Shown here: in pieces, positions 2,182 to 16,049 of the stretch | How positions within the stretch are numbered: the first letter of the stretch is position 1 | Layout: each line of letters starts with the position of its first letter | Assembly (NCBI GenBank): GCA_012837285.1 | Contig: DURJ01000114.1 | Span: 1-33,581 of the forward strand | DNA length: 33,581 nt | Reading direction: 5' to 3' | From: Bacillota bacterium | Lineage (GTDB): Bacteria > Bacillota > DTU030 > DUMP01 | Notes under the pieces: model-generated | What the model saw: the letters and a program-made list of their open reading frames with translations, nothing else | Databases searched by the model: none | What the model was told of the DNA's origin: nothing | Translations under genes and position numbers: made by a program

Positions 2182-3840
2182 ATGAGCATTACTCTAGCGG
2201 AAGCCTTAGAACTCGGCCTGTTTCCAGAAGCGCAGGTTATCGCTGGCCATAAAGGATTGAACCGTCCGATTCGCTTTGTGGATGTGATGGAGGTTCCCGA
2301 TCCGGACAAGTACTTCAGGAGCGGCTTACTGCTTGTTAGCAGCTGGTACGCTATTCACGATGATGTGGAGGCTCAGTGCCGACTAGTTCAATCAGCTGCA
2401 GATGTAGGCGCAGCCGGTTTTGCCCTCAAAGTTCGCCGCTATTTGGGCTGCGTTCCCGAGCGGGTGATTAAATTGGCCAACGAATTACAACTACCTATTG
2501 TTGATGTTGTCAAGGATGTTCCCTATGTGGAGATTACCCATCCGTTGTTAACTAGAATCCTTCATGCCCAAGCTTTCAGGTTGGAATACCATCTTAATAT
2601 CCATAGACTATTTAGACGAGTTGCTCTGGAGGGCGGTAGTTTCGATTCCATTGTCCGAACGCTTCATTCCCTCCTGCACAAACCCGTTGCTGTTTGTGAC
2701 GCCGAAGGCCGACTGCTGGCTTGGTTTCCAACCGAAACTGATAACTGGTCTGCCTTTCGTGTAGGCATGCCGTTTTTAGATCAAATGGACATTCAAAAAC
2801 TGGCTCACATAGATCATCATGACTATCGGAATTTGCGTCTAGGAATTGGAGAACTGCTGGTCTTTCCAATTCGCATTGAATCTGATACGTACGGATATTT
2901 TTTAGTCAACGAAATCGATACGCCTTGCACTGAACTGGATCTGATAGCGTTAGAAAATGCCAGTACGGTAGCTGCTCTGGAGGCTACTAAGCGGGCCGCC
3001 ATTGCTGAGGTAGAACATCATTTTCGCCATGATTTTGTTTATGATCTTATTAGTGGCAATCTGCCTTCCGAAGAAGTGGCTCAAATGCGGGCTGCAGCTT
3101 TAGGCTGGAACTTTGTTCAGCCGGTTGTGGTACTGGTGGCAAATATAGACGGGTTTGCCGCCCTGGTGGAAAGAAAGCAAGACGAAGCGTACGCTATGAA
3201 CATAAAATCTAAAATGTTAGCAGTGACAAGGAAAACTGTCGCCGCCCATAGCCATTCCTATATTGTGGCCAGCATAAGTGACAGCTGTATTGCGGTGGTA
3301 CACTTGCCGGGTTCCAATCGTCAGAAGAAAGAGCATAAAGGGTTACACAATCTATTAATAGAACTTCAAAGGAATTTAGCCCAAGAGCTTAAAGATATTA
3401 GTGTCTCACTTGCTGTGAGTGATCATTGTACGAGTCTATTGGACGTGGGTTCAGGTTACCGAGAAGCATGTGAGCTTATGGAAATTAGTCGCAAGACCCA
3501 GGGAGAAGGCCAATTGGCTATTAAAGAAGAACTAGATGTTTATCGTCTGTTGTACCGCTGTGGGCATCAAGAAGAAATGGCTGCGTTTTGTCAGGAAATG
3601 CTGGGTTCTCTAATGGAGCATGATGCTGACAGTGGTGTCGACCTGCTGTTTACACTTCGCCGCTTCCTGGAAAAGGGGGCCGCCATGAGACAAACCGCCC
3701 GATCTCTGTTTATACACGAAAACACCCTGCGTTATCGGCTAGGAAAAATAGAGGAGATAACCGGTATGGATTTGAGAAAACCAAACCACCGTTTCCGGCT
3801 AGCAATGGCTCTGCACATGACCCCATTCCTTGATCAATGA
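2182..3840 (+). CDS. PucR-family transcriptional regulator
   Basis: A 552-residue regulator. Residues about 8-130 form the PucR N-terminal (purine catabolism PurC-like) domain, with the motif RFVDVMEVPDPDKYF. A middle section resembles the degenerate GGDEF-like sensor module of this family (about 300-420). The C-terminus (about 485-545) is a PucR-type helix-turn-helix with RSLFIHENTLRYRLGKIEEI. PucR proteins act as ligand-responsive activators or repressors of nitrogen-compound catabolism. The ATG is preceded by GAGGTGAGG. The gene lies directly upstream of, and in the same direction as, the OPT transporter operon but is separated from it by a strong terminator. It is therefore the likely regulator of that operon but is not cotranscribed with it. 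The effector cannot be read from the sequence. Confidence 0.88.
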   Translation: MSITLAEALELGLFPEAQVIAGHKGLNRPIRFVDVMEVPDPDKYFRSGLLLVSSWYAIHDDVEAQCRLVQSAADVGAAGFALKVRRYLGCVPERVIKLANELQLPIVDVVKDVPYVEITHPLLTRILHAQAFRLEYHLNIHRLFRRVALEGGSFDSIVRTLHSLLHKPVAVCDAEGRLLAWFPTETDNWSAFRVGMPFLDQMDIQKLAHIDHHDYRNLRLGIGELLVFPIRIESDTYGYFLVNEIDTPCTELDLIALENASTVAALEATKRAAIAEVEHHFRHDFVYDLISGNLPSEEVAQMRAAALGWNFVQPVVVLVANIDGFAALVERKQDEAYAMNIKSKMLAVTRKTVAAHSHSYIVASISDSCIAVVHLPGSNRQKKEHKGLHNLLIELQRNLAQELKDISVSLAVSDHCTSLLDVGSGYREACELMEISRKTQGEGQLAIKEELDVYRLLYRCGHQEEMAAFCQEMLGSLMEHDADSGVDLLFTLRRFLEKGAAMRQTARSLFIHENTLRYRLGKIEEITGMDLRKPNHRFRLAMALHMTPFLDQ

Positions 3841-3860: not shown

Positions 3861-3897
3861 GCGCGCTCTACGAAGAAAGGGGCGCGTTTTTGTTTTT
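3861..3897 (+). terminator. Intrinsic terminator after the pucR-type gene
   Basis: A GC-rich stem pairs 3862-3868 (CGCGCTC) with 3880-3886 (GGGCGCG, one G-T pair). It is followed by TTTTTGTTTTT. This separates the regulator from the downstream operon. Confidence 0.85.
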
Positions 3898-4048: not shown

Positions 4049-5623
4049 ATGGACGAAAAGAAAGCTAGGCATGAAAAGGCGTTGGCACCGGAAACGTTCA
4101 TACTGAGTGTCATTATGGCGGCAGCAGCAGCGGCCATTTGCATGCAGATTATTTCCCGGATCGGAATCACTCCCAATACATCGATCATTGGAGCCATTGT
4201 GGCTATGACTTTGGCTCGGGTTCCTTTTGCCTCTATGGCTAAGTTCCGTTCGCTGGAGAGACAGAACTTGGTACAGACCATGACTTCGGCCGGTGGATTT
4301 GGTGCTGCTAACTGCGGTTTGTTGGCCGTCGGCATCATTTACCTTTATGGAGAGCCTGGATTGGTTATACCCATGTTAATTGGCTCTACCATATCTACCC
4401 TGGTAGGTATGAGCTTTGTCTACAGTGTATTCGACTCTGACTTGTATCCCGGAGATGGGGCTTGGCCGCCGGGTGTGGCTACTGCTCAGGCCATTATTGC
4501 TGGTGATGAAGGTGGGCGGAAAGCTAGAAGACTAGTGGAAGGCGTTATTGCCGGAGTGGTCGGTACCCACTTTAAACTACCCATGGCCGGAGTGGGGATC
4601 GTTTTTATAGCTAATATCTTTGCCATGGCTGCGCTAGGAATAGGACTTGTCATACGCGGGTATTCTCAACAGTTATTCGGCATTGACCTGGGCACGACTT
4701 ATGTTCCCCATGGCGTTATGATTGGGGCCGGGATAGTTAGCTTGATCCAAGCAATAATAATCATTCAGCGCGGAGGTCAGGCTAATAAGGCCGACGAAGA
4801 AAGTAAGGCTGTGACGGAAAAAACAGTTGGGCCTACCCAAGCAAAGCGCGCTGCCTTAGTGCACCTAGGACTATACTTGGTGGGAGCAGTTGCTCTGGCG
4901 GTTGTCGGTGGTATTATCGCGGAAATGAGTTTCGGTACCATGATGATATGGACTCTCTGGGCCGGGATCTCAGCTCTGTTGGCAGCTATTTTAGTCGGCT
5001 TAGCAGCCATGCACTCAGGCTGGTTCCCCGGCTTTGCCATTACTGTTATTTTCTTAACCTTAGGGCTGTTCATGGGGTTCCCAGGTGTACCGCTAGCTCT
5101 CTTGAGCGGTTACGTTGCCAGTTCCGGTCCCTGTTTTGCTGACATGGGTTACGACTTGAAGACAGGCTGGATTTTGCGCGGCGATGGTAAAGATGTTGAG
5201 TATGAACTGGAGGGACGCAAGGAACAACTTATTGCCGAGTTAGTTGGAGGTATTGTGGCCATGGTTATGGTGGCCCTCTTTATGAACATGCATTTCCAAC
5301 TGGATATGCTGCCTCCCGTCAGCCGGGTATTCGCTACCACCGTCAAGGCTGGGGCCGGTGAGCCAGGAATTGTACGCCAGTTGGCGATCTGGGCCATACC
5401 AGGAGCAATTCTGCAGGCCATTGGCGGATCCGGTCGGGCAATGGGGATTCTATTTGCCACGGGACTGTTGATCAACAATCCTATCTACGGCATTGGTGTT
5501 CTGATTGCCGTAATCGTACGGCTCATTATCGGGACAGAGCCCATGGAAATCCGTGAAGCCGGACTAATTGCCGGCGATGGACTATATGGATTCTTTTCCG
5601 CTATAGCACGAGCATTCTTTTAG
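4049..5623 (+). CDS. OPT-family oligopeptide/metal-complex transporter
   Basis: A 524-residue polytopic membrane protein with many hydrophobic segments. The WPPGVATAQAI stretch near residue 145 matches the conserved P-x-G-x-A-T-A region of the OPT superfamily. OPT proteins import oligopeptides or small metal-chelating compounds by cation symport. The ATG at 4043 lies almost on top of the AAGGAGGG ribosome site (4035-4042), whereas the ATG at 4049 has normal spacing, so 4049 is preferred. It is the first gene of a seven-gene operon of racemase-like, DUF917, DUF1177, AroM and peptidase genes, which makes it the probable importer of their substrate. Family assignment is fairly firm; the substrate is unknown. 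Confidence 0.85.
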   Translation: MDEKKARHEKALAPETFILSVIMAAAAAAICMQIISRIGITPNTSIIGAIVAMTLARVPFASMAKFRSLERQNLVQTMTSAGGFGAANCGLLAVGIIYLYGEPGLVIPMLIGSTISTLVGMSFVYSVFDSDLYPGDGAWPPGVATAQAIIAGDEGGRKARRLVEGVIAGVVGTHFKLPMAGVGIVFIANIFAMAALGIGLVIRGYSQQLFGIDLGTTYVPHGVMIGAGIVSLIQAIIIIQRGGQANKADEESKAVTEKTVGPTQAKRAALVHLGLYLVGAVALAVVGGIIAEMSFGTMMIWTLWAGISALLAAILVGLAAMHSGWFPGFAITVIFLTLGLFMGFPGVPLALLSGYVASSGPCFADMGYDLKTGWILRGDGKDVEYELEGRKEQLIAELVGGIVAMVMVALFMNMHFQLDMLPPVSRVFATTVKAGAGEPGIVRQLAIWAIPGAILQAIGGSGRAMGILFATGLLINNPIYGIGVLIAVIVRLIIGTEPMEIREAGLIAGDGLYGFFSAIARAFF

Positions 5624-5630
5624 TTAAAAT

Positions 5631-5660
5631 AGGGACTGCCGGCAGTGGCCGGCAGTCCCT
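5631..5660 (+). repeat. Perfect 12-bp inverted repeat between transporter and racemase-like gene
   Basis: AGGGACTGCCGG (5631-5642) pairs exactly with CCGGCAGTCCCT (5649-5660) around a 6-nt loop. No T-tract follows (AAGAACC), so it is unlikely to be an efficient terminator. It is more likely an mRNA-stabilising or processing hairpin that lowers expression of downstream genes relative to the transporter, or protects the transporter message. Confidence 0.7.
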
Positions 5661-5703
5661 AAGAACCTTGGCCCGAACAATTTACGTCTTAGAGGGTGTG
5701 AAG

Positions 5704-6357
5704 ATGGAAAAAGCAAGGATTGGCCTGATTCGGGTGCTGACCACCGATGATCCGCAAGTTCTGGGTTTACACGGCCATCTCATCATGAACTATTTCCCTG
5801 GACTAGAAGTGATTACGAGCTGCATTGCCGGACAACCACGCGGTGTATTCGACCAAGCTACCGAAGAGCAAGCATGGCCCAAAGTAGTGGCTTTAGCGCA
5901 AGAGATGGCCCAGGACGGTTTACAGGCAATTATTGTCAGCTGCGCCGCTGATCCCGGGGTCCAGCAGGCCAGAGAAGTACTGGACATCCCTATTATCGGT
6001 GCCGGCAGTGCAGCTGCCCATGTGGCCCTCAGCTTGAGTGCCAGTGTTGCTGCTCTGGGCATAACCGAGGATGTTCCGGCAGCAATGGCTAATGTTCTGG
6101 GGTCAGCCCTGTTAGCTTCGGCCAAACCCGTGGGCGTAGAGACTACTGTAGATCTCATGAAACCACCTGGTAAGCAGGCTGTTTTGACAGCAGCGGAAAA
6201 GCTGAGGGAGAAAGGAGCCCAGGTGTTAGTCTTGGCTTGTACCGGGATGTCAACCATCGGGGTGGCGGAGGATATTCGTCGGGAGCTTGGTATTAGGGTG
6301 GTAGATCCGGTTATTGCAACTGGCCTTATTGCTTGGTATGTCTCCAGGGAAGCTTAA
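5704..6357 (+). CDS. Asp/Glu/hydantoin racemase-family protein
   Basis: A 217-residue cytoplasmic protein of the Asp/Glu racemase superfamily. Two cysteines, in IIVSCAADPG (C80) and LVLACTGMS (C179), are about 100 residues apart, as expected for the two-base cysteine pair of cofactor-independent racemases. The second is followed by TGMS, as in many family members. A TTG lies further upstream at 5668, but ATG 5704 has the ribosome site AGAGGG at 5691-5696 with good spacing and is chosen. It lies between the OPT transporter and the DUF917 gene. It could racemise an amino acid, hydantoin or other chiral acid. A lyase or isomerase such as maleate isomerase, from the same fold, cannot be excluded. 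Confidence 0.8.
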   Translation: MEKARIGLIRVLTTDDPQVLGLHGHLIMNYFPGLEVITSCIAGQPRGVFDQATEEQAWPKVVALAQEMAQDGLQAIIVSCAADPGVQQAREVLDIPIIGAGSAAAHVALSLSASVAALGITEDVPAAMANVLGSALLASAKPVGVETTVDLMKPPGKQAVLTAAEKLREKGAQVLVLACTGMSTIGVAEDIRRELGIRVVDPVIATGLIAWYVSREA

Positions 6358-6373
6358 AGGAGGGGGTTGTATA

Positions 6374-7450
6374 GTGGCAGAACTGATCATGGATCAAGAG
6401 TTAGTTGAGGCAGCGGTAATCGGTGGGGCTGTACTGGGCGGTGGCGGCGGTGGATCTATGGCATGGGGGCGTGAACTGGCCCAGCTGGCTGTGCGCATGG
6501 GTACAGTCCGGCTGGTGGATATCGACGCGATGGATGACGAAGCTATCTTGTTTACGGTGTCGGCTGTAGGAGCCCCGGCGGCCAAGGAGGCCATGGTCAA
6601 ACCGGTGGGCTATGTCCGAGCAGTGGAACTGCTGACCGAAAAGGCCCAAATAAAGGCGGACGGGCTCATAACCAACGAATGTGGCGGAACAGCCACTATC
6701 AACGGCTGGTTACAGTCGGCAATCTTAGGTATCCCAGTGGTAGATGCGCCCTGCAATGGTCGCGCTCATCCCACGGGAGCCATGGGGTCCATGGGACTTC
6801 ATGCTAAAGAAGGTTATATATCTTATCAGACGGCGGCCGGGGGAGATCCTGCCGAGGGAAGATACCTGGAACTGTTTGTGCAAGGCAATATTGAACGGGC
6901 GGCTGCTTTAGTGCGGCAGGCGGCTGTACAGGCCGGCGGCCTGGTGGCTGTAGCCCGAAATCCCATCGATGCCGGTTATGTAAAGAAGAACGGAGCTCCA
7001 GGAGCTGTCCGTCAGTCAATAACTTTGGGTCAAGCTATGCTGGCAGCCCGGCCCAAAGGTGGAACTGCTGTGGTTGAAGCGGCGGCGGAGGTGTTAGGCG
7101 GCCAGATTGTGGAGACGGGAGCAGTAGAAAAAGTTGAACTCGTCACCGCCGGCGGCTTCGACTCTGGGCGAGTAACACTCGGTTCTTTTGAACTTACGTT
7201 TTGGAACGAGTATATGACCCTTGAAAAAGACGGTACCAGGTTGGGGACATTCCCGGATCTTATTATGACCTTGGATAAGTCCACCGGCACCCCGGTCTCC
7301 TCCGCCGATATTCATGAACAACAAGAGGTAGCCATACTTTATGTACCGCGAGCCAATTTGCTGCTGGGAGCAGGTATGTTTAGCCCGGAACTGTTGGTGG
7401 CGGCGGAAAAAGTGACGGGTAAGAAAGTAATTGACTATCTTGAGCAATAA
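6374..7450 (+). CDS. DUF917 (S-methyl-thiohydantoin desulfurase-like) protein
   Basis: A 358-residue protein with the glycine-rich N-terminal block GGAVLGGGGGGSMAWG (about residues 16-31) and NECGGTATINGW further on, both typical of the DUF917 family. The family has been linked to hydantoin-type metabolism and includes S-methyl thiohydantoin desulfurase from a thiohydantoin/ergothioneine breakdown route. A GTG start at 6374 is chosen because the strong AAAGGAGGGGG site overlaps the end of the preceding gene, at 6356-6366. The frame extends upstream to 6314, but that would overlap the racemase-like gene. Context suggests it acts on a cyclic or amide-bonded intermediate in the same pathway. The actual substrate is unknown. 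Confidence 0.82.
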   Translation: MAELIMDQELVEAAVIGGAVLGGGGGGSMAWGRELAQLAVRMGTVRLVDIDAMDDEAILFTVSAVGAPAAKEAMVKPVGYVRAVELLTEKAQIKADGLITNECGGTATINGWLQSAILGIPVVDAPCNGRAHPTGAMGSMGLHAKEGYISYQTAAGGDPAEGRYLELFVQGNIERAAALVRQAAVQAGGLVAVARNPIDAGYVKKNGAPGAVRQSITLGQAMLAARPKGGTAVVEAAAEVLGGQIVETGAVEKVELVTAGGFDSGRVTLGSFELTFWNEYMTLEKDGTRLGTFPDLIMTLDKSTGTPVSSADIHEQQEVAILYVPRANLLLGAGMFSPELLVAAEKVTGKKVIDYLEQ

Positions 7451-7467
7451 GGGGGTTCAAATCAACA

Positions 7468-8406
7468 ATGCTGCTAAAACAGGTTCTCGAGGTGTTCGAG
7501 ATACTGGACAGTCCGCAGGCCGACGGTGAACAAGTTACTAAACTGCTGCTGGATGCCGGCGTTCACCAAGTAGAGTCCCAACGTATCCAAGGTCCTAAAG
7601 GCTACACTGACTTTGTTAAGGCTGTAATTCCTGGCCGGTCCGGCAAGATAAGCGGCGGTAAGGCACCTACGTTGGGAATAGTCGGTCGTTTGGGCGGGCT
7701 GGGAGCACGGCCGGAACGAATCGGCTTTGTATCCGACGGTGACGGAGCAGCGGTAGCTGTTGCGGCCGCGTTAAAGCTGGGGTGCATGCATGCTTTGGGA
7801 GATATATTAGCAGGTGATGTAATAGTGACTACCCACATTTGCCCTCATGCACCCACTAGACCTCATGAACCGGTACCGTTTATGGATTCACCAGTGGACA
7901 TTGCCACCATGAACGAGTATGAAATTGATCCTGCCATGGATGCCATTCTCTCCGTTGATACCACCAAAGGCAACCGGATTATCAACCATCGCGGCTTTGC
8001 CATTTCACCCACTGTAAAAGAAGGCTATATTCTTCGGGTTAGTGAAGACTTGTTGGATATCATGTCCATCACCACCGGTCAGCTCCCGGTTGTGTTTGCC
8101 ATTACGACTCAAGATATCACACCCTACGGCAATGGTGTCTACCATGTCAACAGCATTCTTCAGCCGGCAACAGCCACCACGGCTCCCTGCGTGGGTGTGG
8201 CTATTACGGCAGAAACACCTGTTCCCGGCTGTGCCACCGGGGCTAGTCATGCCGGCGATGTTGAACTGGCAGCCCGGTTTGTTATCGAAGTGGCCAAAGT
8301 TTTCGGTGAGGGCAAATGCAAATTCTATGATGAAGAAGAATACAAGCATCTGGTTCATCTCTACGGGTCCTTAAGTCATCTGCAGACCTTAGGCCGGGCC
8401 GACTAG
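7468..8406 (+). CDS. DUF1177 family protein
   Basis: A 312-residue soluble protein recognised as DUF1177 from its overall pattern. This includes the C/H-rich segment TTHICPHAPTRPHEP near residues 117-131 and a conserved GASHAGDVELAARFVIEVAK C-terminal stretch. The histidines and cysteine could bind a metal, but this is inference. The ATG at 7468 follows AAGGGGGT with somewhat long spacing (about 11 nt), and the gene lies 17 nt after the DUF917 gene. DUF1177 has no established function that I can name. Its position between DUF917 and AroM-type genes suggests an enzyme in the same pathway. Confidence 0.8.
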   Translation: MLLKQVLEVFEILDSPQADGEQVTKLLLDAGVHQVESQRIQGPKGYTDFVKAVIPGRSGKISGGKAPTLGIVGRLGGLGARPERIGFVSDGDGAAVAVAAALKLGCMHALGDILAGDVIVTTHICPHAPTRPHEPVPFMDSPVDIATMNEYEIDPAMDAILSVDTTKGNRIINHRGFAISPTVKEGYILRVSEDLLDIMSITTGQLPVVFAITTQDITPYGNGVYHVNSILQPATATTAPCVGVAITAETPVPGCATGASHAGDVELAARFVIEVAKVFGEGKCKFYDEEEYKHLVHLYGSLSHLQTLGRAD

Positions 8407-8421
8407 AGAGAATAGATCGAT

Positions 8422-9282
8422 ATGAGAGCTCAACTAACTCTAACAGTGAGCGAGGGTAAGCAGCTTATCGCCCTTGCCGTGACCCGAATGCCCGAGGTAC
8501 AGGCCGCTCTTAAACACGGAAGGATACTTCTCAAGGGGGGCACCACTGTATCGGCACTAGCCGAAATACTGGTCGGAGCGCCGCTTAGGCTGTCGGGCCG
8601 TATTACTCCTCTGGGTACCAAGTCGGCTCGTACCACTGTGGCCGAGCCGCATTCCATCTTAGTGGAAAAAGGAGTACCCAGGGGAGTCGATGACGATCTT
8701 CAAGAGGCCGTCCTCACCATGGGACCAGGTGACATAGCCGTCTGCGGGGCCAATCTAATTGACCGCCGCGGCCATGCTGCCTTAATGGCCGGCAGCCCCT
8801 TGGGAGGAAATCCGGGCCGAGTTATCTCGGCCTTGGCGGCGGAGGGGATCACCGTCATTATACCGGCCGGCCTGGAGAAACTAACCCCGGGTTCAATTGC
8901 AGAGGCAACTTTGGCCGCCAGTCGCAAAGGCACCCACTGGTCCATGGGTATGGCAGTAGGGCTAATACCGGTTCCGGGTCGGATAATTACCGAACTTACG
9001 GCTCTCAGTCTCCTGGCCGAAGTAACGGCCACGGTCATTGGCCGCGGCGGTATTATGGGGGCTGAAGGAGCGACCACATTTGTTGTCCAGGGGGACCAAG
9101 CGGAAGTTCAAAAACTTTGCCGCCTGGTACTCAAACTAAAAAGGGCCCGTACCAGCGCTGTTGACGGCAGCAAAGAAGAATGTCGTCGTAGTTGTCCTAG
9201 CTGCGATAACCACTTGGGGTGCATCTACGCTGGAAAAGAGAAAACTAAGTTACCTCCGGAGGTGACAGACGATGAAAGGTAA
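8422..9282 (+). CDS. Unrecognised operon protein with C-terminal Cys cluster
   Basis: A 286-residue protein I cannot place in a named family. It is rich in Gly and Ala, with alternating hydrophobic strands such as GDIAVCGANLI and GITVIIPAGLE that suggest an alpha/beta nucleotide- or substrate-binding fold. No membrane segment or signal peptide is evident. The C-terminus carries C254-x3-C258-x2-C261-x5-C267 (CRRSCPSCDNHLGC), a possible zinc or iron-sulfur site. The ribosome site is weak (AGAGAG). The 3' end overlaps the AroM gene start by 11 nt, implying translational coupling. It is clearly a real gene by context, codon use and tight packing; its function is unknown. Confidence 0.75.
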   Translation: MRAQLTLTVSEGKQLIALAVTRMPEVQAALKHGRILLKGGTTVSALAEILVGAPLRLSGRITPLGTKSARTTVAEPHSILVEKGVPRGVDDDLQEAVLTMGPGDIAVCGANLIDRRGHAALMAGSPLGGNPGRVISALAAEGITVIIPAGLEKLTPGSIAEATLAASRKGTHWSMGMAVGLIPVPGRIITELTALSLLAEVTATVIGRGGIMGAEGATTFVVQGDQAEVQKLCRLVLKLKRARTSAVDGSKEECRRSCPSCDNHLGCIYAGKEKTKLPPEVTDDER

Positions 9283-9943
9283 AGTTATTGGGGCTGTGAC
9301 TATTGGTCAGGCTCCTAGGGTTGACATCATGCCAGAGCTGACTGCTATCTTAGGTCCTGAGGTGCAGGTCAAAGAAGCGGGAGCGCTGGATGGGCTGAGC
9401 AAAGAGGAAATAGCCGCTTTCGCTCCAAAGGCTGGAGACTATGTACTGGTCACGCGGTTGGCAGACGGCTCATCGGTGAAAGTGGCCGAACAGTATATCA
9501 CACCGCGAATTAAGGAGAGGATCCAAAATTTCTTCGATCAGGGGATCGAAGTGGTAGCTCTCCTTTGCACCGGCGAATTTGAATTAGTGGGGAAGGGATT
9601 GTTAGTTCGCCCTCAACCAATACTGTACAACGTAACTAAGGCCGTGGCCGATGGACTAAAAGTTGGGGTAGTGTCCCCGGCTGCTGATCAAATTCCTCAG
9701 TCTAAGAAACGTTGGCAGCAAGTGGGGACCGAACAAGTTATGGTGGCGGCTTCTCCGTATGGTGATGTGGCCGAACTTGAAAAGGCGGCAGATGCGCTTA
9801 AGCGCCAACAAGTGCAGTTGGTGGTCCTAGATTGTATGGGCTATACTCTAGCCATGCAAGAGAAAGTACGGCAGATTACCGGTGCTCCGGTTATTTTGGC
9901 CCGGGGAATTTTTGCCCGAGTTCTTAAGGAGCTCATTGGGTGA
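9272..9943 (+). CDS. aroM: AroM family protein
   Basis: A 223-residue protein with the family signature TIGQAPRVDIMPEL at the N-terminus. Two cysteines, in LLCTGEFEL (C99) and VLDCMGYT (C188), resemble the cysteine pair of Asp/Glu racemase-like enzymes. AroM was named in Escherichia coli for its cotranscription with aroL; its enzymatic role is not settled. Here no shikimate gene is nearby. It is embedded with a transporter, racemase-like, DUF917, DUF1177 and peptidase genes, so a role in that catabolic set is more plausible. It starts inside the end of the preceding gene behind CCGGAGGTGA. Confidence 0.85.
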   Translation: MKGKVIGAVTIGQAPRVDIMPELTAILGPEVQVKEAGALDGLSKEEIAAFAPKAGDYVLVTRLADGSSVKVAEQYITPRIKERIQNFFDQGIEVVALLCTGEFELVGKGLLVRPQPILYNVTKAVADGLKVGVVSPAADQIPQSKKRWQQVGTEQVMVAASPYGDVAELEKAADALKRQQVQLVVLDCMGYTLAMQEKVRQITGAPVILARGIFARVLKELIG

Positions 9944-9957
9944 AAGGAAGTAGGCTT

Positions 9958-10908
9958 ATGACTACAAGTATGGTGAAGATTGCCGAGCATCTTTTGCGGC
10001 AGAATTTAGCCTTAAAGGACGGGGAACAACTGCTGATAATCGTCGATGAGACTACTTTATCCATTGGCGAGGCTTTGTTTGCGGCTGGGAGAGACTTAGG
10101 GGCCAAAGTAGTACAGATGCAGATGCAGCCTTTAGGTAAAAGCGGCGTGGAGCCAATCCCAATCGTATCGCAAGGCATGTCGGCGGCCGACGTGGTAGTG
10201 GCGGCAACGGCCCACTCTCTTACTCATACCCAAGCCCGCAAAAAAGCTTGTGCTGCCGGTACTCGAATAGCTACCATGCCGGGGATAACAGTGGAGATGT
10301 TTGCCGGCGGCGCCCTGGCTGCCGACTATGAACAAATAGCAGCCCGCACTAACAAGCTGGCAGACCTTTTAACTGAGGCCAAAGAAGCGGTGCTGATAAA
10401 TGGCGGGGCGCGGCTCAGCATGTCTTTAGAAAGCCGAAAGGCGGTGGCCAGTACCGGTATCTATCGTAGCAAGGGCCAGGGGGGCAACCTCCCTTCCGGA
10501 GAGGCTTTCATTGCTCCGGTGGAAGGCACTGCCGAAGGTGAGATCGTAATCGACGGGTCTTTTGCCGGCCTCGGGACCCTGCAAGCTCCGCTGAAACTGA
10601 CATTTTGTCAAGGAGCTATGGTAGATGCAGTCGGCCCCGACAGCCATAAGCTTCTCTCTCTACTGGGGGACAATCTATTAGCCCGCAACTTAGCCGAACT
10701 GGGGATCGGAACCAACGACAAGGCCAGCGTAATCGGAGTGGTGCTGGAGGACGAAAAAGTCTACGGGACAGCCCATATTGCCCTTGGCAGCAACGATACT
10801 TTCGGCGGCCAAGTAGCTGCCGGCATTCACGTCGATGGGGTGATTATGGCTCCTGAACTTTACCTGGACGGCGAGCCCATCCTTCGCGACGGACAGTTGG
10901 TGATATAG
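9958..10908 (+). CDS. M29-like zinc aminopeptidase
   Basis: A 316-residue protein resembling the thermophilic aminopeptidase family M29. Visible motifs are NLPSGEAFIAP (E182), VEGTAEGEIVIDG, VYGTAHIALGSN (H273) and IHVDGVIM (H291, D293). These fit the Glu/His/Asp metal ligands of the family and its characteristic N-L-P-x-G-E signature. It is shorter than classical M29 enzymes (about 400 residues). The ATG at 9958 is preferred over GTG 9940 because AAAGGAAG at 9943-9950 gives correct spacing. It is the last gene of the operon and would release N-terminal residues from an imported peptide, or hydrolyse a related amide. Confidence 0.83.
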   Translation: MTTSMVKIAEHLLRQNLALKDGEQLLIIVDETTLSIGEALFAAGRDLGAKVVQMQMQPLGKSGVEPIPIVSQGMSAADVVVAATAHSLTHTQARKKACAAGTRIATMPGITVEMFAGGALAADYEQIAARTNKLADLLTEAKEAVLINGGARLSMSLESRKAVASTGIYRSKGQGGNLPSGEAFIAPVEGTAEGEIVIDGSFAGLGTLQAPLKLTFCQGAMVDAVGPDSHKLLSLLGDNLLARNLAELGIGTNDKASVIGVVLEDEKVYGTAHIALGSNDTFGGQVAAGIHVDGVIMAPELYLDGEPILRDGQLVI

Positions 10909-10922
10909 AAGAATAAGAGGAC

Positions 10923-10953
10923 GGGGGCTGCTTAAGATGGGCAGCCCCTTTTA
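10923..10953 (+). terminator. Intrinsic terminator of the OPT-peptidase operon
   Basis: GGGGCTGC (10924-10931) pairs with GCAGCCCC (10941-10948) around a 9-nt loop and is followed by TTTT. Confidence 0.8.
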
Positions 10954-11183: not shown

Positions 11184-11212
11184 TTTACAACTATTGACAA
11201 TATATGTATAAT
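11184..11212 (+). promoter_or_regulatory. Strong sigma-A type promoter upstream of the acetamidase gene
   Basis: TTTACA (11184-11189), a 17-nt spacer, and a perfect TATAAT (11207-11212). Transcription would begin near 11219 and give a leader of roughly 230 nt before the coding start at 11453. Confidence 0.7.
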
Positions 11213-11452: not shown

Positions 11453-12751
11453 ATGAAAGCGGCGACAACTGTATGTGTGCAGGAATACACAAATGGCTTG
11501 CTGGATCCTAAACAGCCTATGTTGGGTCCTGTAAAAGACGGCGGCTACATTATTGCCAATACAGCGCCAGGATGCTGGGGACCGATGATAACGCCGGCTT
11601 TGCGCGGTGGACATGAGGTGACTAAGCCAGTGTTTGTTGAAGGTGCTGAAGTGGGCGATGCCATTGCTATTCGTATAAAATCGATCGAAATTACCAGTAG
11701 GGCCACATCCTCCGGCGTGGATTTTGCATACCCAGACAGATTCGAAGGGGATCCTTTTGTGGCAAGCAAGTGTGCGGCTTGTGGAGAGATATGGCCGGAA
11801 AGCGTGGTAGAAGGTATCGGCCCCGATGCTGTTCGCTGCAAGAAATGCGGCTCATCGGTGTCAACGTTCGGTTTTACCAACGGTTATACAATTGTATTCG
11901 ATGAAGGGAAAAGAGTAGGAGTCACGGTTCCTCTGACAGTGGCAGAGAAAATTGCGGCTGATGGCAGGAATTACATGCATATTCCAGATAAATCCGTTCA
12001 GCATCCTGTTGTGACACTGGCGCCTGCACACCTGTCCGGAATTGCAACCCGGCTAAAGCCGTTTCTAGGGCAACTGGGAACTGTGCCGTCAGTCATATTC
12101 CCCGATTCTCACAATGCAGGAGACTTTGGCACTTTCTTGATCGGCGCGCCCCATCCATATGCACTGACAACGGATCAGCTTTTACTGAGAACAGACGGAC
12201 ATATGGATATCAACTGGGTTCGGGCCGGTTGTATCGTCATTTGCCCTGTCAAAGTACCGGGAGGAGGCATTTACGTGGGCGATGCCCATGCACTACAGGG
12301 GAGCGGTGAAATTGCCGGGCACACATGTGATGTTGCTGCCACTGTTACATTACAGGTCGATGTTATTAAACAACTTAGAAATGAAGGGCCGATTCTTCTA
12401 CCGCTGGAAGAAGACCTACCTGATTTGGCACGGCCGCTGAAAGCTAAAGAGCGTGAGATTGCGTACCGGCAAGCAAAGAAATGGGGTATGGAGGAGCTGG
12501 AAACATCCCTACCGCTTTCTTTTGTCGGAACGGGTGAGAATCTTAACATAGCAATCGACAATTCGCTTACCCGTGCAGCCTCTCTGCTCGAAATGAGCGT
12601 TGCAGAAGTCAAGAACCGTGCAACCATAACCGGATCTATTGATTTGGGGAGAGCACCTGGTGTGGTAATGGCGACTTTCTTAGTTCCGATAGACGTTTTA
12701 GACAGACTGGGACTTTTAGAAATCGTCCAGGAACAGTACGAATACCGTTAA
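11453..12751 (+). CDS. Acetamidase/formamidase family protein with zinc-ribbon-like insertion
   Basis: A 432-residue amidase of the FmdA/AmdA family, which hydrolyses short amides to carboxylate and ammonia. The family hallmark GGGIYVGDAHALQGSGEIAG is near residues 270-290, with HTCDVAATVTLQ after it. An unusual segment carries C107-x2-C110 and C129-x2-C132 around EIWPESVVEGIGPDAVR, which looks like a small metal-binding ribbon inserted in the N-terminal half. The ATG is preceded by GAGGGAGG with 8-nt spacing. It is a single-gene unit with its own promoter, separated by terminators from both neighbours. It could act on an amide released by the upstream pathway, but this is only proximity. Confidence 0.88.
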   Translation: MKAATTVCVQEYTNGLLDPKQPMLGPVKDGGYIIANTAPGCWGPMITPALRGGHEVTKPVFVEGAEVGDAIAIRIKSIEITSRATSSGVDFAYPDRFEGDPFVASKCAACGEIWPESVVEGIGPDAVRCKKCGSSVSTFGFTNGYTIVFDEGKRVGVTVPLTVAEKIAADGRNYMHIPDKSVQHPVVTLAPAHLSGIATRLKPFLGQLGTVPSVIFPDSHNAGDFGTFLIGAPHPYALTTDQLLLRTDGHMDINWVRAGCIVICPVKVPGGGIYVGDAHALQGSGEIAGHTCDVAATVTLQVDVIKQLRNEGPILLPLEEDLPDLARPLKAKEREIAYRQAKKWGMEELETSLPLSFVGTGENLNIAIDNSLTRAASLLEMSVAEVKNRATITGSIDLGRAPGVVMATFLVPIDVLDRLGLLEIVQEQYEYR

Positions 12752-13315: not shown

Positions 13316-14677
13316 ATGGCAACCAATGAAATTGACTTAATCAAGAGTATTAAAGTGATGCTTAAAAGAGGGGATACAGCACAGATAAAAGAACTTTTTC
13401 TAAAGCTTCATCCTGCCGACATAGCTGAACTTCTAGCAGAAATACAAAACAGTAGCCAGAAACATCTTTTCAAACTAATTGACTATCAAAAGGCTGCTGA
13501 AGTACTGGATGAACTCGAACCTGAAATACAGATTGATATTATTAATTGCCTTCCGGAAGGGAAAAAAGAAAAAGTTATTAGAGAGATGTCTATAGATGAG
13601 ATAGTGGACTTGCTGCAGGTACTTCCTGAAAACAAGGTGGAAAAAATATTAGAGAAGTTGTCAATAGATGAACTGGAAAATGTAAAAGGGCTGCTTCTTC
13701 TTTCCCATGATAGTGCCGGGGGTATAATGACGACAGAATATGTATACATACCCCAGGATACTACAGTAGAGGAAGCCATAGAGATGGTAAGAAAGTTTGG
13801 ACGCCATGCAGAAACAATATACTATCTCTATATAGTTGATGAAAACCACAAGCTTGTAGGGGTCCTTTCATTAAGAGAATTGATTAGTGCACAGAGGGAT
13901 CTATTAGTAAGAACGATAATGCATAAGAAGGTTGTAACAGTCAATGTAGATGATGACCAAGAGATTGCTGTAAAAACGATTGATAAGTATTCCCTCCTTG
14001 CCGTTCCTGTTATAGATACAAATGAGAGGCTAATGGGGATTATTACGGTAGACGATGCACTAGAGGTACTCAAAGAAGAGACTACTGAAGATATACACAG
14101 GATGGCAGGTATAACAGCTGAAGAAGACACTGTGTTAACAAGTTCTCCTATTCAAGCCTTTCGAAAAAGAATTCCATGGTTGCTGGTTTGTCTTGCGGGA
14201 GATATGTTAGCCGGGAATGTCATAGAAGGGTATTCATCTACCCTGGAAGCCGTTATTTCACTAGCCTTTTTTATTCCGGTATTGATGGCATCAGGTGGAA
14301 ATGTTGGGACACAGTCTCTTGCACTGGCAGTGAGGGGTCTGGCAACTGAACAATTGACACGGGACAATATTATTAGGAACTTAATCCATGAAACATTTGC
14401 AGGGCTTATTGCAGGAATAGTTTGCGGGGGTTTATTGGCAGCTTTAGCCTTTTATTGGCAGGGGAATCCTTATATAGGAGTAACCGTAGGTGTTGCAATG
14501 GTTGTCAGTTTGGCCCTGTCGGCATTAATAGGCATGTTAATTCCAATTATATTAAACTTATTTCATATAGATCCTGCCATAGCATCAGGTCCGCTTATTA
14601 CTACAGTAGTTGACATAATAACATTGGCTGTCTACTTTGGAACAGCCACTCTTTTTCTCAAAGAATTGGTGATATGA
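13316..14677 (+). CDS. mgtE: Magnesium transporter MgtE (first copy)
   Basis: A 453-residue MgtE-family Mg2+ channel. The N-terminal helical-bundle domain covers about 1-130, a pair of CBS domains about 135-255 (GGIMTTEYVYIPQDTTVEEA, then MGIITVDDALEVL), and five transmembrane helices about 285-450. The pore segment PVLMASGGNVGTQS is near residue 327 and a conserved Asp lies in the last helices (TTVVDIITL). The cytoplasmic domains sense Mg2+ and gate the pore. The ATG follows GAGGAGGA. It lies behind an M-box riboswitch and immediately before a second mgtE. The DNA is visibly more AT-rich than the flanks. Confidence 0.95.
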   Translation: MATNEIDLIKSIKVMLKRGDTAQIKELFLKLHPADIAELLAEIQNSSQKHLFKLIDYQKAAEVLDELEPEIQIDIINCLPEGKKEKVIREMSIDEIVDLLQVLPENKVEKILEKLSIDELENVKGLLLLSHDSAGGIMTTEYVYIPQDTTVEEAIEMVRKFGRHAETIYYLYIVDENHKLVGVLSLRELISAQRDLLVRTIMHKKVVTVNVDDDQEIAVKTIDKYSLLAVPVIDTNERLMGIITVDDALEVLKEETTEDIHRMAGITAEEDTVLTSSPIQAFRKRIPWLLVCLAGDMLAGNVIEGYSSTLEAVISLAFFIPVLMASGGNVGTQSLALAVRGLATEQLTRDNIIRNLIHETFAGLIAGIVCGGLLAALAFYWQGNPYIGVTVGVAMVVSLALSALIGMLIPIILNLFHIDPAIASGPLITTVVDIITLAVYFGTATLFLKELVI

Positions 14678-14693
14678 AAGGAGGACATGGAAT

Positions 14694-16049
14694 ATGACAC
14701 AAGATGATTTGATCCTCCGGGAAGTAATGCGATTAATAGAAGACGATAATACAGATATACTGGTGGATTATCTGGAAGAATTGCATCCGACTGATATTGC
14801 TAATCTTTTTAAGGATTTACCCGAAGGCAATAGAGAATTTATTTTTAACTGCCTCGTTTCCGAAAAAGCAGTCCAGGTGCTTGAAGAATTAGAACATGAT
14901 CTACGCCTCTATTTTTTGAACAATGTGCCTCGTAATTATATGACCAGACTCTTAAAGGAAATGTCAAGTGATGAAATAGCAGATTTTTCGAGAGAACTAC
15001 CTGATGAGTTAGCTGAAAGATTACTTGGAATGTTAGCAGTTGGGGAAAGATCGGAAATCGAGAATCTGCTGGAATATGATAAAAGCACGGCAGGGGGGCT
15101 AATGACCACTGAGTATGTAGCCTTTCATCTGGACACTTCCATAAAGAAGGTTTTAGATAAGCTTCCTGATGTGGCCCCTGATGCAGAAACTATTTACTAT
15201 ATATATGTAGTTGATAATGAGAACAAAATTAAAGGGGTGATATCGCTACGAGACCTTATACTTGCAGAACCTAACTTACCCCTAAAAGAAGTAATGCTTA
15301 CTGATGTAATAAGAATAGATGCAGGGATGGATCAGGAAGAAGTTGCCAAAGTATTTGAGAAATATGGTTTATTAGGTATGCCGGTAGTTGATCATGATAA
15401 CACCCTGCTTGGAATAATAACGGTGGACGATGTATTTGACATAATAGAAGAGGAAGCTACTGAAGATATTTTGAAGCTGGCAGGTGCTGATGTTCAGTTA
15501 GATGTAGAAGATAAGTCAGCTTGGTACAGAGCTTATAGGAGGCTTCCATGGCTTCTAATCGCCCTTGTGGGACAGATCTTTTCAGGAAAGGTAGTAAGTG
15601 GCTTTTCTGAAACTTTAGAGGCGGTAATTGCATTATCGTTCTTTATCCCTGTCTTAATGGATATGGGTGGGAATGTGGGTACTCAGTCCTCTGCAATAAT
15701 AGTAAGGGGGCTGGCAACCGACAATATAGACACCCAAAAGAGTATACGGGATGATATAGCTAGGGAAAGTGCTGTTGGCCTTCTACTAGGGGCAGTAAGT
15801 GGAATTGCGACTGCATTGATTGCTTATGTATGGCAGGGAATACCTATGTTGGGTCTTGTTGTGGGGCTGTCAATGACCCTTACCCTTACAGTAGCGGCTG
15901 CGTTAGGGGCTTTTGTTCCACTTGCTCTTAATAAGATTGGTAAAGATCCCGCTGTTTCATCAGGACCTTTTGTAACTACAGTGCTAGATGTAGTTGGATT
16001 GTTAATATATTTTGGCTCAGCGAGTCTTTTTGTAGGACACTTGTTATGA
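14694..16049 (+). CDS. mgtE: Magnesium transporter MgtE (second copy)
   Basis: A 451-residue paralogue of the preceding gene with the same layout: an N domain, CBS pair (GGLMTTEYVAFHLDTSIKKV, LGIITVDDVFDIIEEE) and C-terminal membrane domain with PVLMDMGGNVGTQS near residue 325 and TTVLDVVGLLIYFG. It starts 16 nt after the first copy, behind AAAGGAGG, so both are cotranscribed under the M-box. The two proteins are similar throughout but clearly diverged, so this is an old tandem duplication or a joint acquisition. MgtE works as a homodimer; a tandem pair could also form heterodimers, which is inference. Confidence 0.95.
   Translation: MTQDDLILREVMRLIEDDNTDILVDYLEELHPTDIANLFKDLPEGNREFIFNCLVSEKAVQVLEELEHDLRLYFLNNVPRNYMTRLLKEMSSDEIADFSRELPDELAERLLGMLAVGERSEIENLLEYDKSTAGGLMTTEYVAFHLDTSIKKVLDKLPDVAPDAETIYYIYVVDNENKIKGVISLRDLILAEPNLPLKEVMLTDVIRIDAGMDQEEVAKVFEKYGLLGMPVVDHDNTLLGIITVDDVFDIIEEEATEDILKLAGADVQLDVEDKSAWYRAYRRLPWLLIALVGQIFSGKVVSGFSETLEAVIALSFFIPVLMDMGGNVGTQSSAIIVRGLATDNIDTQKSIRDDIARESAVGLLLGAVSGIATALIAYVWQGIPMLGLVVGLSMTLTLTVAAALGAFVPLALNKIGKDPAVSSGPFVTTVLDVVGLLIYFGSASLFVGHLL

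Follow-up and report, generated by a model that had tools for sequence, protein, structure and literature searches.

Gene Organization at the Locus

The DNA analysed here, referred to below as the window, is the 33,581-nucleotide contig DURJ01000114.1 of a Bacillota bacterium (GTDB lineage DTU030, DUMP01; assembly GCA_012837285.1). Open reading frame (ORF) calls, domain searches and sequence reading place seven tightly packed genes at 4049-10908, all on the + strand, encoding in order an OPT-family transporter, a two-cysteine racemase (RacA), a DUF917 protein, a DUF1177 protein, an unnamed protein, the racemase-like protein AroM and a short M29-type protein (Table 1). The initial annotation of this DNA had described them as one operon with small gaps or overlaps and a single terminator, and the ORF, domain and terminator evidence confirms this. 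The interval is bounded by the terminator downstream of pucR and by the terminator after the last gene. Downstream of the racemase gene, no intergenic gap exceeds about 31 bp, and at two junctions the genes overlap or come close to doing so; the OPT and racemase genes are separated by about 80 bp, within which lies a strong hairpin.

Table 1. Features of the operon and of its surroundings in the window.
Feature	Coordinates	Strand	Evidence
PucR-type regulator gene pucR	2182..3840	+	PF07905, PF13556, PF17853
Terminator-like stem and T-run 3' of pucR	3862..3897	+	CGCGCTC ... GGGCGCG TTTTTGTTTTT; read from sequence
OPT-family transporter, predicted importer	4049..5623	+	PF03169, E 2.7e-23
Hairpin between OPT and racemase genes	5630..5661	+	perfect 14-bp stem, -30.7 kcal/mol, no U-tract
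PF01177 racemase (RacA; hydantoin/Asp-Glu racemase superfamily)	5704..6357	+	PF01177, E 5.5e-24
DUF917 / S-Me-THD-like hydrolase	6389..7450	+	PF06032 and PF20906
DUF1177, core of the module	7468..8406	+	PF06675, 454.9 bits
Unnamed protein	8422..9282	+	C-terminal invariant E253-C254, H264, C267
AroM, second two-Cys racemase-like protein	9272..9943	+	PF07302
Short M29-like metallo-peptidase	9940 or 9958..10908	+	PF02073, E 5.4e-11
Operon terminator	10924..10952	+	GGGGCTGC ... GCAGCCCC TTTT; stem-loop and four T; -20.8 kcal/mol
Acetamidase/formamidase (FmdA)-family gene	11453-12751		PF03069; promoter-like site of its own at 11184-11212

Conservation of the DUF1177-AroM Core

The gene set is a conserved functional unit with DUF1177 and AroM as its core, and their association is not due to chance. 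When 399 genomes were drawn evenly from the phylum, 45 contained DUF1177 and 40 contained AroM (E < 1e-10); AroM is present in 35 of the 45 genomes with DUF1177 versus 5 of the 354 without it, where about 4.5 shared genomes would be expected (Fisher P = 8e-36). Forty stretches were fetched from this draw, about 25 of which carry AroM in the same stretch (up to 20 kb) as DUF1177, and in the others the DUF1177 gene is mostly divergent and stands isolated. At least 587 DUF1177 loci were found on scanning GTDB genomes; the 80 most similar were kept, which biases the sample to near relatives, and gene flanks were counted at the 52 loci whose flanks extend 6 kb or more in each direction. Within 6 kb, AroM is encoded at 43 of these loci, OPT at 28, the racemase at 26, DUF917 at 21, PucR and the M29-like protein at 20 each, and the unnamed protein at 5. 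Conserved co-occurrence had been proposed in the initial annotation as a check on its reading, with occasional adjacency as the outcome that would speak against it; because the gene set is a conserved unit, the latter does not apply.

The loci kept span Bacillota, Synergistota, Enterobacterales, Burkholderia, Actinomycetota, Chloroflexi-type metagenome-assembled genomes, Thermococcus and Bathyarchaeota. A minimal module on a Klebsiella plasmid reads IclR-OPT-DUF1177-AroM-PepE-Asp/Glu racemase, with insertion sequences on both flanks; a PepE homologous to that of this module passes its NCBIfam cut-off (331 vs 156 bits). The haloarchaeon Salinigranum has an ATP-binding cassette (ABC) importer followed by DUF917, DUF1177, AroM, an aminopeptidase, a racemase and a desuccinylase-family protein, and a Paenibacillus plasmid combines an ABC importer, an ArgE/DapE deacylase, DUF1177 and AroM. 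Peptidases found within 8 kb of DUF1177 at the 52 loci are M20 (11 loci), PepE (5) and M42 (2).

As a side observation, the compact OPT-DUF1177-AroM-PepE-racemase island at L171:5616-14473, on a conjugative plasmid of Klebsiella, is flanked by insertion sequences, which suggests that the module can move.

Exchange of Importers

The OPT gene of the operon, whose ATG start at 4049 is preceded by a properly spaced Shine-Dalgarno sequence, is the only OPT locus found in the source genome. When the flanks of the 52 loci are extended to 8 kb, OPT is present at 29 of them. Taken together with other importers over the same distance, OPT occurs alone at 25 loci, the Dpp ABC importer at 10, both at 4, NCS1 permeases at 2, and no recognised importer at 11. 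Peptide-type importers therefore dominate. NCS1 is a nucleobase/hydantoin permease family, and its presence points to a ring compound as substrate in a minority of loci.

The Two-Cysteine Racemases

The initial annotation had recognised two racemase-like proteins in the operon, and both identifications stand. RacA scores 85.6 bits against PF01177 (cut-off 31), and its two paired cysteines, C92/C191 counting from the TTG at 5668, are invariant in 60/60 sequences; with the domain match and both catalytic cysteines it belongs to the two-Cys racemase superfamily. AroM scores 264.7 bits against PF07302 (cut-off 23.8), and its pair C99/C188 is invariant in 91/91 sequences, which places it in the AroM family and among two-Cys proteins. 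Such invariant pairs are as expected of two-base, cofactor-free racemases, an activity that we predict for both proteins.

A precedent for this fold acting on cyclic dipeptides is provided by NozR, a cofactor-independent Asp/Glu racemase homologue with a Cys dyad that interconverts diketopiperazine stereoisomers (PMC10156859). By analogy with this one homologue, AroM and RacA may act as diketopiperazine epimerases. However, NozR is a single, biosynthetic enzyme, and its likeness to RacA and AroM is at the level of the superfamily.

DUF1177, a Putative Hydrolase

The DUF1177 protein is a full member of its family, covering positions 2-271 of the 272 in PF06675 (cut-off 25 bits). No function could be named for it in the initial annotation, and none was found in the literature searched: queries on DUF1177, thiohydantoin desulfurase and cyclic dipeptide hydrolase returned almost nothing relevant, and the one paper that mentions DUF1177, out of a library of 5.39 million, concerns another family, judged by its title. 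What can now be added is a fold prediction. A structure model (predicted local distance difference test, pLDDT, 82.4) compared with the PDB by Foldseek gave 225 matches at E <= 0.001, the best with E 6.7e-9, probability 1.00 and a TM-score of about 0.5, and the top solved structures are M17, M28 and M20 zinc exopeptidases. The modelled fold is shared with these enzymes, but the set of HxD, EE, D and H metal-ligand motifs of their clan is not reproduced in DUF1177, which has no conserved HxD, and its identity as a classic M20/M42 enzyme was rejected on a negative hhalign profile comparison.

Twelve polar residues are invariant in DUF1177 (R74, S89, D90, D92, T122, D164, D216, Y220, H226, N228, S229 and Q232), H123 and H133 are almost invariant, and R74 follows the strand equivalent to the HxD strand. 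This pattern suggests an enzyme with a rewired site, and D90, D164, H123, H133 and H226 could form such an alternative site. DUF1177 is best described as a predicted amide or peptide hydrolase with a divergent zinc-exopeptidase fold, not assigned to those peptidase families.

DUF917, the M29-Like Protein and the Accessory Protein

The DUF917 protein has both Pfam domains of the S-Me-THD family (formerly DUF917), and its closest NCBIfam models are the thiohydantoin and S-methyl thiohydantoin desulfurases (E 1e-89 and 1e-86). The link with hydantoin chemistry drawn in the initial annotation can be narrowed to an S-Me-THD-like protein, but this copy falls below both curated equivalog cut-offs (300.5 vs 440 and 290.7 vs 450 bits), and a true thiohydantoin desulfurase was rejected on these scores. 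The source genome has two DUF917 genes.

The last gene product matches PF02073 at 42.4 bits (cut-off 27), partially, over profile positions 183-348 of 406 only, with the N-terminal region of the M29 profile missing. Its residues E188, E253, H279, H297 and D299, which we take by motif to be the M29 metal ligands, are conserved in 48 sequences. Its best sequence matches in the PDB are 7cn3, a 2,5-dihydroxypyridine dioxygenase, and then PepS, to which the resemblance is about equal. The earlier designation as an M29 peptidase is better given as M29-like: the domain match is partial, the protein is short and the nearest solved structure by sequence is a dioxygenase. It is predicted to be a dipeptide or cyclic-amide hydrolase.

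The unnamed protein encoded at 8422 is indeed in the operon and has no match in Pfam, NCBIfam, PHROGs or PDB sequences; its predicted fold likewise has no match in the PDB at E <= 0.001. Weak partial matches to eIF2B/CoA-transferase-like folds were not used. Profile-related proteins, for which there is no Pfam model, occur in 106/399 genomes of the phylum, and members of the family also accompany genes for DUF917, the racemase and the M29-like protein at loci where DUF1177 is absent. Given its presence at 5/52 DUF1177 loci, it is an accessory member and not part of the core. The profile matches, among them those at L162, L163 and L166, are often present in single copy, one of them beside DUF401.

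Transcription Units and Neighbouring Genes

The regulator gene pucR does lie beside the operon, as the initial annotation had noted, yet it is a separate transcription unit because its own terminator-like stem and T-run precede the operon; its inclusion in the operon transcript was rejected for the same reason. This stem has a loop of 11, whereas the terminator scanner is limited to 8, hence it lay outside the scanner's range. The hairpin between the OPT and racemase genes is perhaps an mRNA processing or stability element, because no U-tract follows it on the + strand, and it may give different mRNA levels for the transporter and the enzymes; stems also fold in the corresponding gap of relatives L071 and L073.

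The FmdA-family gene downstream was rejected as an operon member, being 545 bp past the last gene and beyond the terminator. It is not conserved with the operon, and near relatives have one weak, truncated relative of it (about 32-35 bits). Further along the window, at 13316-16049, sequence reading alone identifies two tandem homologous genes resembling MgtE-type magnesium transporters.

Relation to Cyclodipeptide Oxidase Clusters

Around cyclodipeptide oxidase (CDO) genes that lack a cyclodipeptide synthase, PF01177 proteins, DUF917, AroM, OPT or ABC importers and peptidases are enriched (PMC11055893). These clusters resemble the operon in their gene families and also occur in anaerobes, among them Blautia, Clostridium and Thermococcus. 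They differ in that the operon in the window has no CDO; moreover, the published analysis was centred on CDO, proposed purine metabolism or secondary metabolites, and does not name DUF1177.

The two kinds of locus meet in some genomes. In Blautia (L144), a fused CDO gene follows DUF1177-AroM-M29-racemase, its product matching AlbA (8uc3, E 1e-22) and AlbB (9exv, E 5e-5), and separate CDO gene pairs stand at the DUF1177 loci L049 and L122. The AlbB family (PF19585) occurs in 10/399 genomes of the phylum, and in Bacillota it is encoded mostly within clusters that also hold genes for Dpp or NCS1 importers, DUF917, racemase, M29-like, M20 and PucR proteins. Several M29-like proteins at these loci reach 373-390 bits, close to the scores seen in the DUF1177 operons; the AlbB locus L049 directly adjoins DUF1177-AroM, and L194 has a partial DUF1177 on the same contig. 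Such settings, seen as Dpp-importer/peptidase clusters at L186 and L190-L192, suggest a catabolic rather than biosynthetic role for these Bacillota CDOs.

A Proposed Pathway and Its Alternatives

From the genes present, their conservation, the exchange of importers, the folds and the active-site residues described above, we infer a substrate, an order of steps and a reaction for each enzyme. We propose, with a probability of roughly 0.45, that the PucR-flanked operon is catabolic and that its substrates are small cyclic amides derived from peptides, cyclic dipeptides (2,5-diketopiperazines) being the likeliest. The compound would be imported by OPT, or in other genomes by the Dpp importer. Next, the cysteine acid/base pairs of the PF01177 racemase and of AroM would serve to invert ring alpha-carbons, bringing every stereoisomer into the configuration that the hydrolases accept. 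DUF1177, with its exopeptidase-like fold, would open an amide bond, while the target of DUF917 would be the ring or an amidine/hydantoin-like derivative, and the linear dipeptide would be split by the M29-type enzyme, or elsewhere by PepE, M20 or M42 enzymes. The initial annotation had already proposed a single catabolic route, perhaps for a D-amino-acid peptide, a cyclic peptide or a hydantoin-like compound; the importer, the peptidase and the hydantoin-type racemases support such a route, with a peptide-like substrate that is cyclic or D-configured.

Several observations weigh against this proposal. A conserved HxD metal motif was looked for in the DUF1177 alignment and not found, and hhalign detected no homology of DUF1177 with M20 (9% probability) or M42 (0.2%). 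The CDO B-subunit PF19585 is unmatched in the source genome, and most DUF1177 loci, like the operon itself, have no CDO gene. About one fifth of the 52 loci lack a recognised importer, 6 of the 52 carry none of the other families, and the unnamed protein has no role in the scheme. The few NCS1 permeases would fit hydantoins equally, as would a Planococcus plasmid on which DUF1177 stands beside DUF917, a cytosine permease and HyuA/HyuB (hydantoinase/oxoprolinase).

These last cases lead to a hydantoin-type pathway, in which the racemases would act on 5-substituted hydantoins or ureido rings, DUF917 would open or modify the ring, and DUF1177 and the M29-type enzyme would remove a carbamoyl group or cleave a peptide bond. 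Hydantoinase systems (hydantoin racemase, hydantoinase, carbamoylase) follow a similar logic of importer, racemase and stereoselective ring hydrolase; PF01177 is the hydantoin racemase superfamily, DUF917 falls in a thiohydantoin family, and some DUF1177 loci have NCS1 permeases, HyuA/HyuB or CN-hydrolases related to N-carbamoylputrescine amidase. Against this, importers and peptidases are mostly of peptide type, no D-hydantoinase above cut-off was found in the source genome and DUF917 misses both equivalog cut-offs, so that we regard this pathway as unlikely, if credible. Degradation of an ergothioneine-like thio-heterocycle with DUF917 as desulfurase, to which the nearest NCBIfam models would lend themselves, is very improbable: the protein is some 140-160 bits short of their cut-offs, many DUF1177 modules have no DUF917, and the importers are again peptide-type. 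Salvage of damaged Asp-peptides, whereby D-Asp, isoAsp or succinimide dipeptides would be taken up, have their Asp centre epimerised and then be cleaved by hydrolysis, agrees with the Asp/Glu racemase superfamily, the peptide importers, the Asp-X dipeptidase PepE in the minimal Enterobacterales module and several hosts that are thermophilic, judged by name. With PepE at 5/52 loci only and the association with CDO and DUF917 left unexplained, it appears rather improbable, yet it and the hydantoin pathway are the serious rivals of the main proposal. That the genes are neighbours without a common pathway, as the six loci devoid of other families might suggest, is scarcely tenable given the co-occurrence statistics and the conservation of the gene sets in different bacterial phyla and in archaea. 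The remaining probability is reserved for substrates that we have not thought of.

Beyond this operon, DUF1177-AroM may, more tentatively, be the core of a widespread, unnamed bacterial and archaeal pathway for breaking down cyclic dipeptides whatever their stereochemistry. Two racemases that need no cofactor would supply substrate to a ring-opening hydrolase of exopeptidase fold, itself of a new class; the CDO clusters would be a sister branch with the same importers and M29-type enzyme. As the initial annotation had judged, the pathway appears undescribed. Catabolic operons of this general kind are already known, and part of the gene set has been noticed around CDO; in the literature searched, nothing was found on the DUF1177-AroM core, on how widely it occurs, on the exchange of importers or on the fold assigned here.

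Significance

Cyclic dipeptides, which occur in abundance and are bioactive, resist ordinary peptidases. Degrading strains, Paenibacillus and Bacillus among them, have been described physiologically (PMC3852281), but the papers found name few of the genes responsible. The conserved unit described here ties DUF1177, AroM, DUF917 and a short M29-type enzyme to a definite biochemical prediction. If this holds true, four poorly annotated families would gain a function together, and new ring-opening and epimerising enzymes would become available; the module would be a ready assay target even if its substrate is a hydantoin or a damaged peptide.

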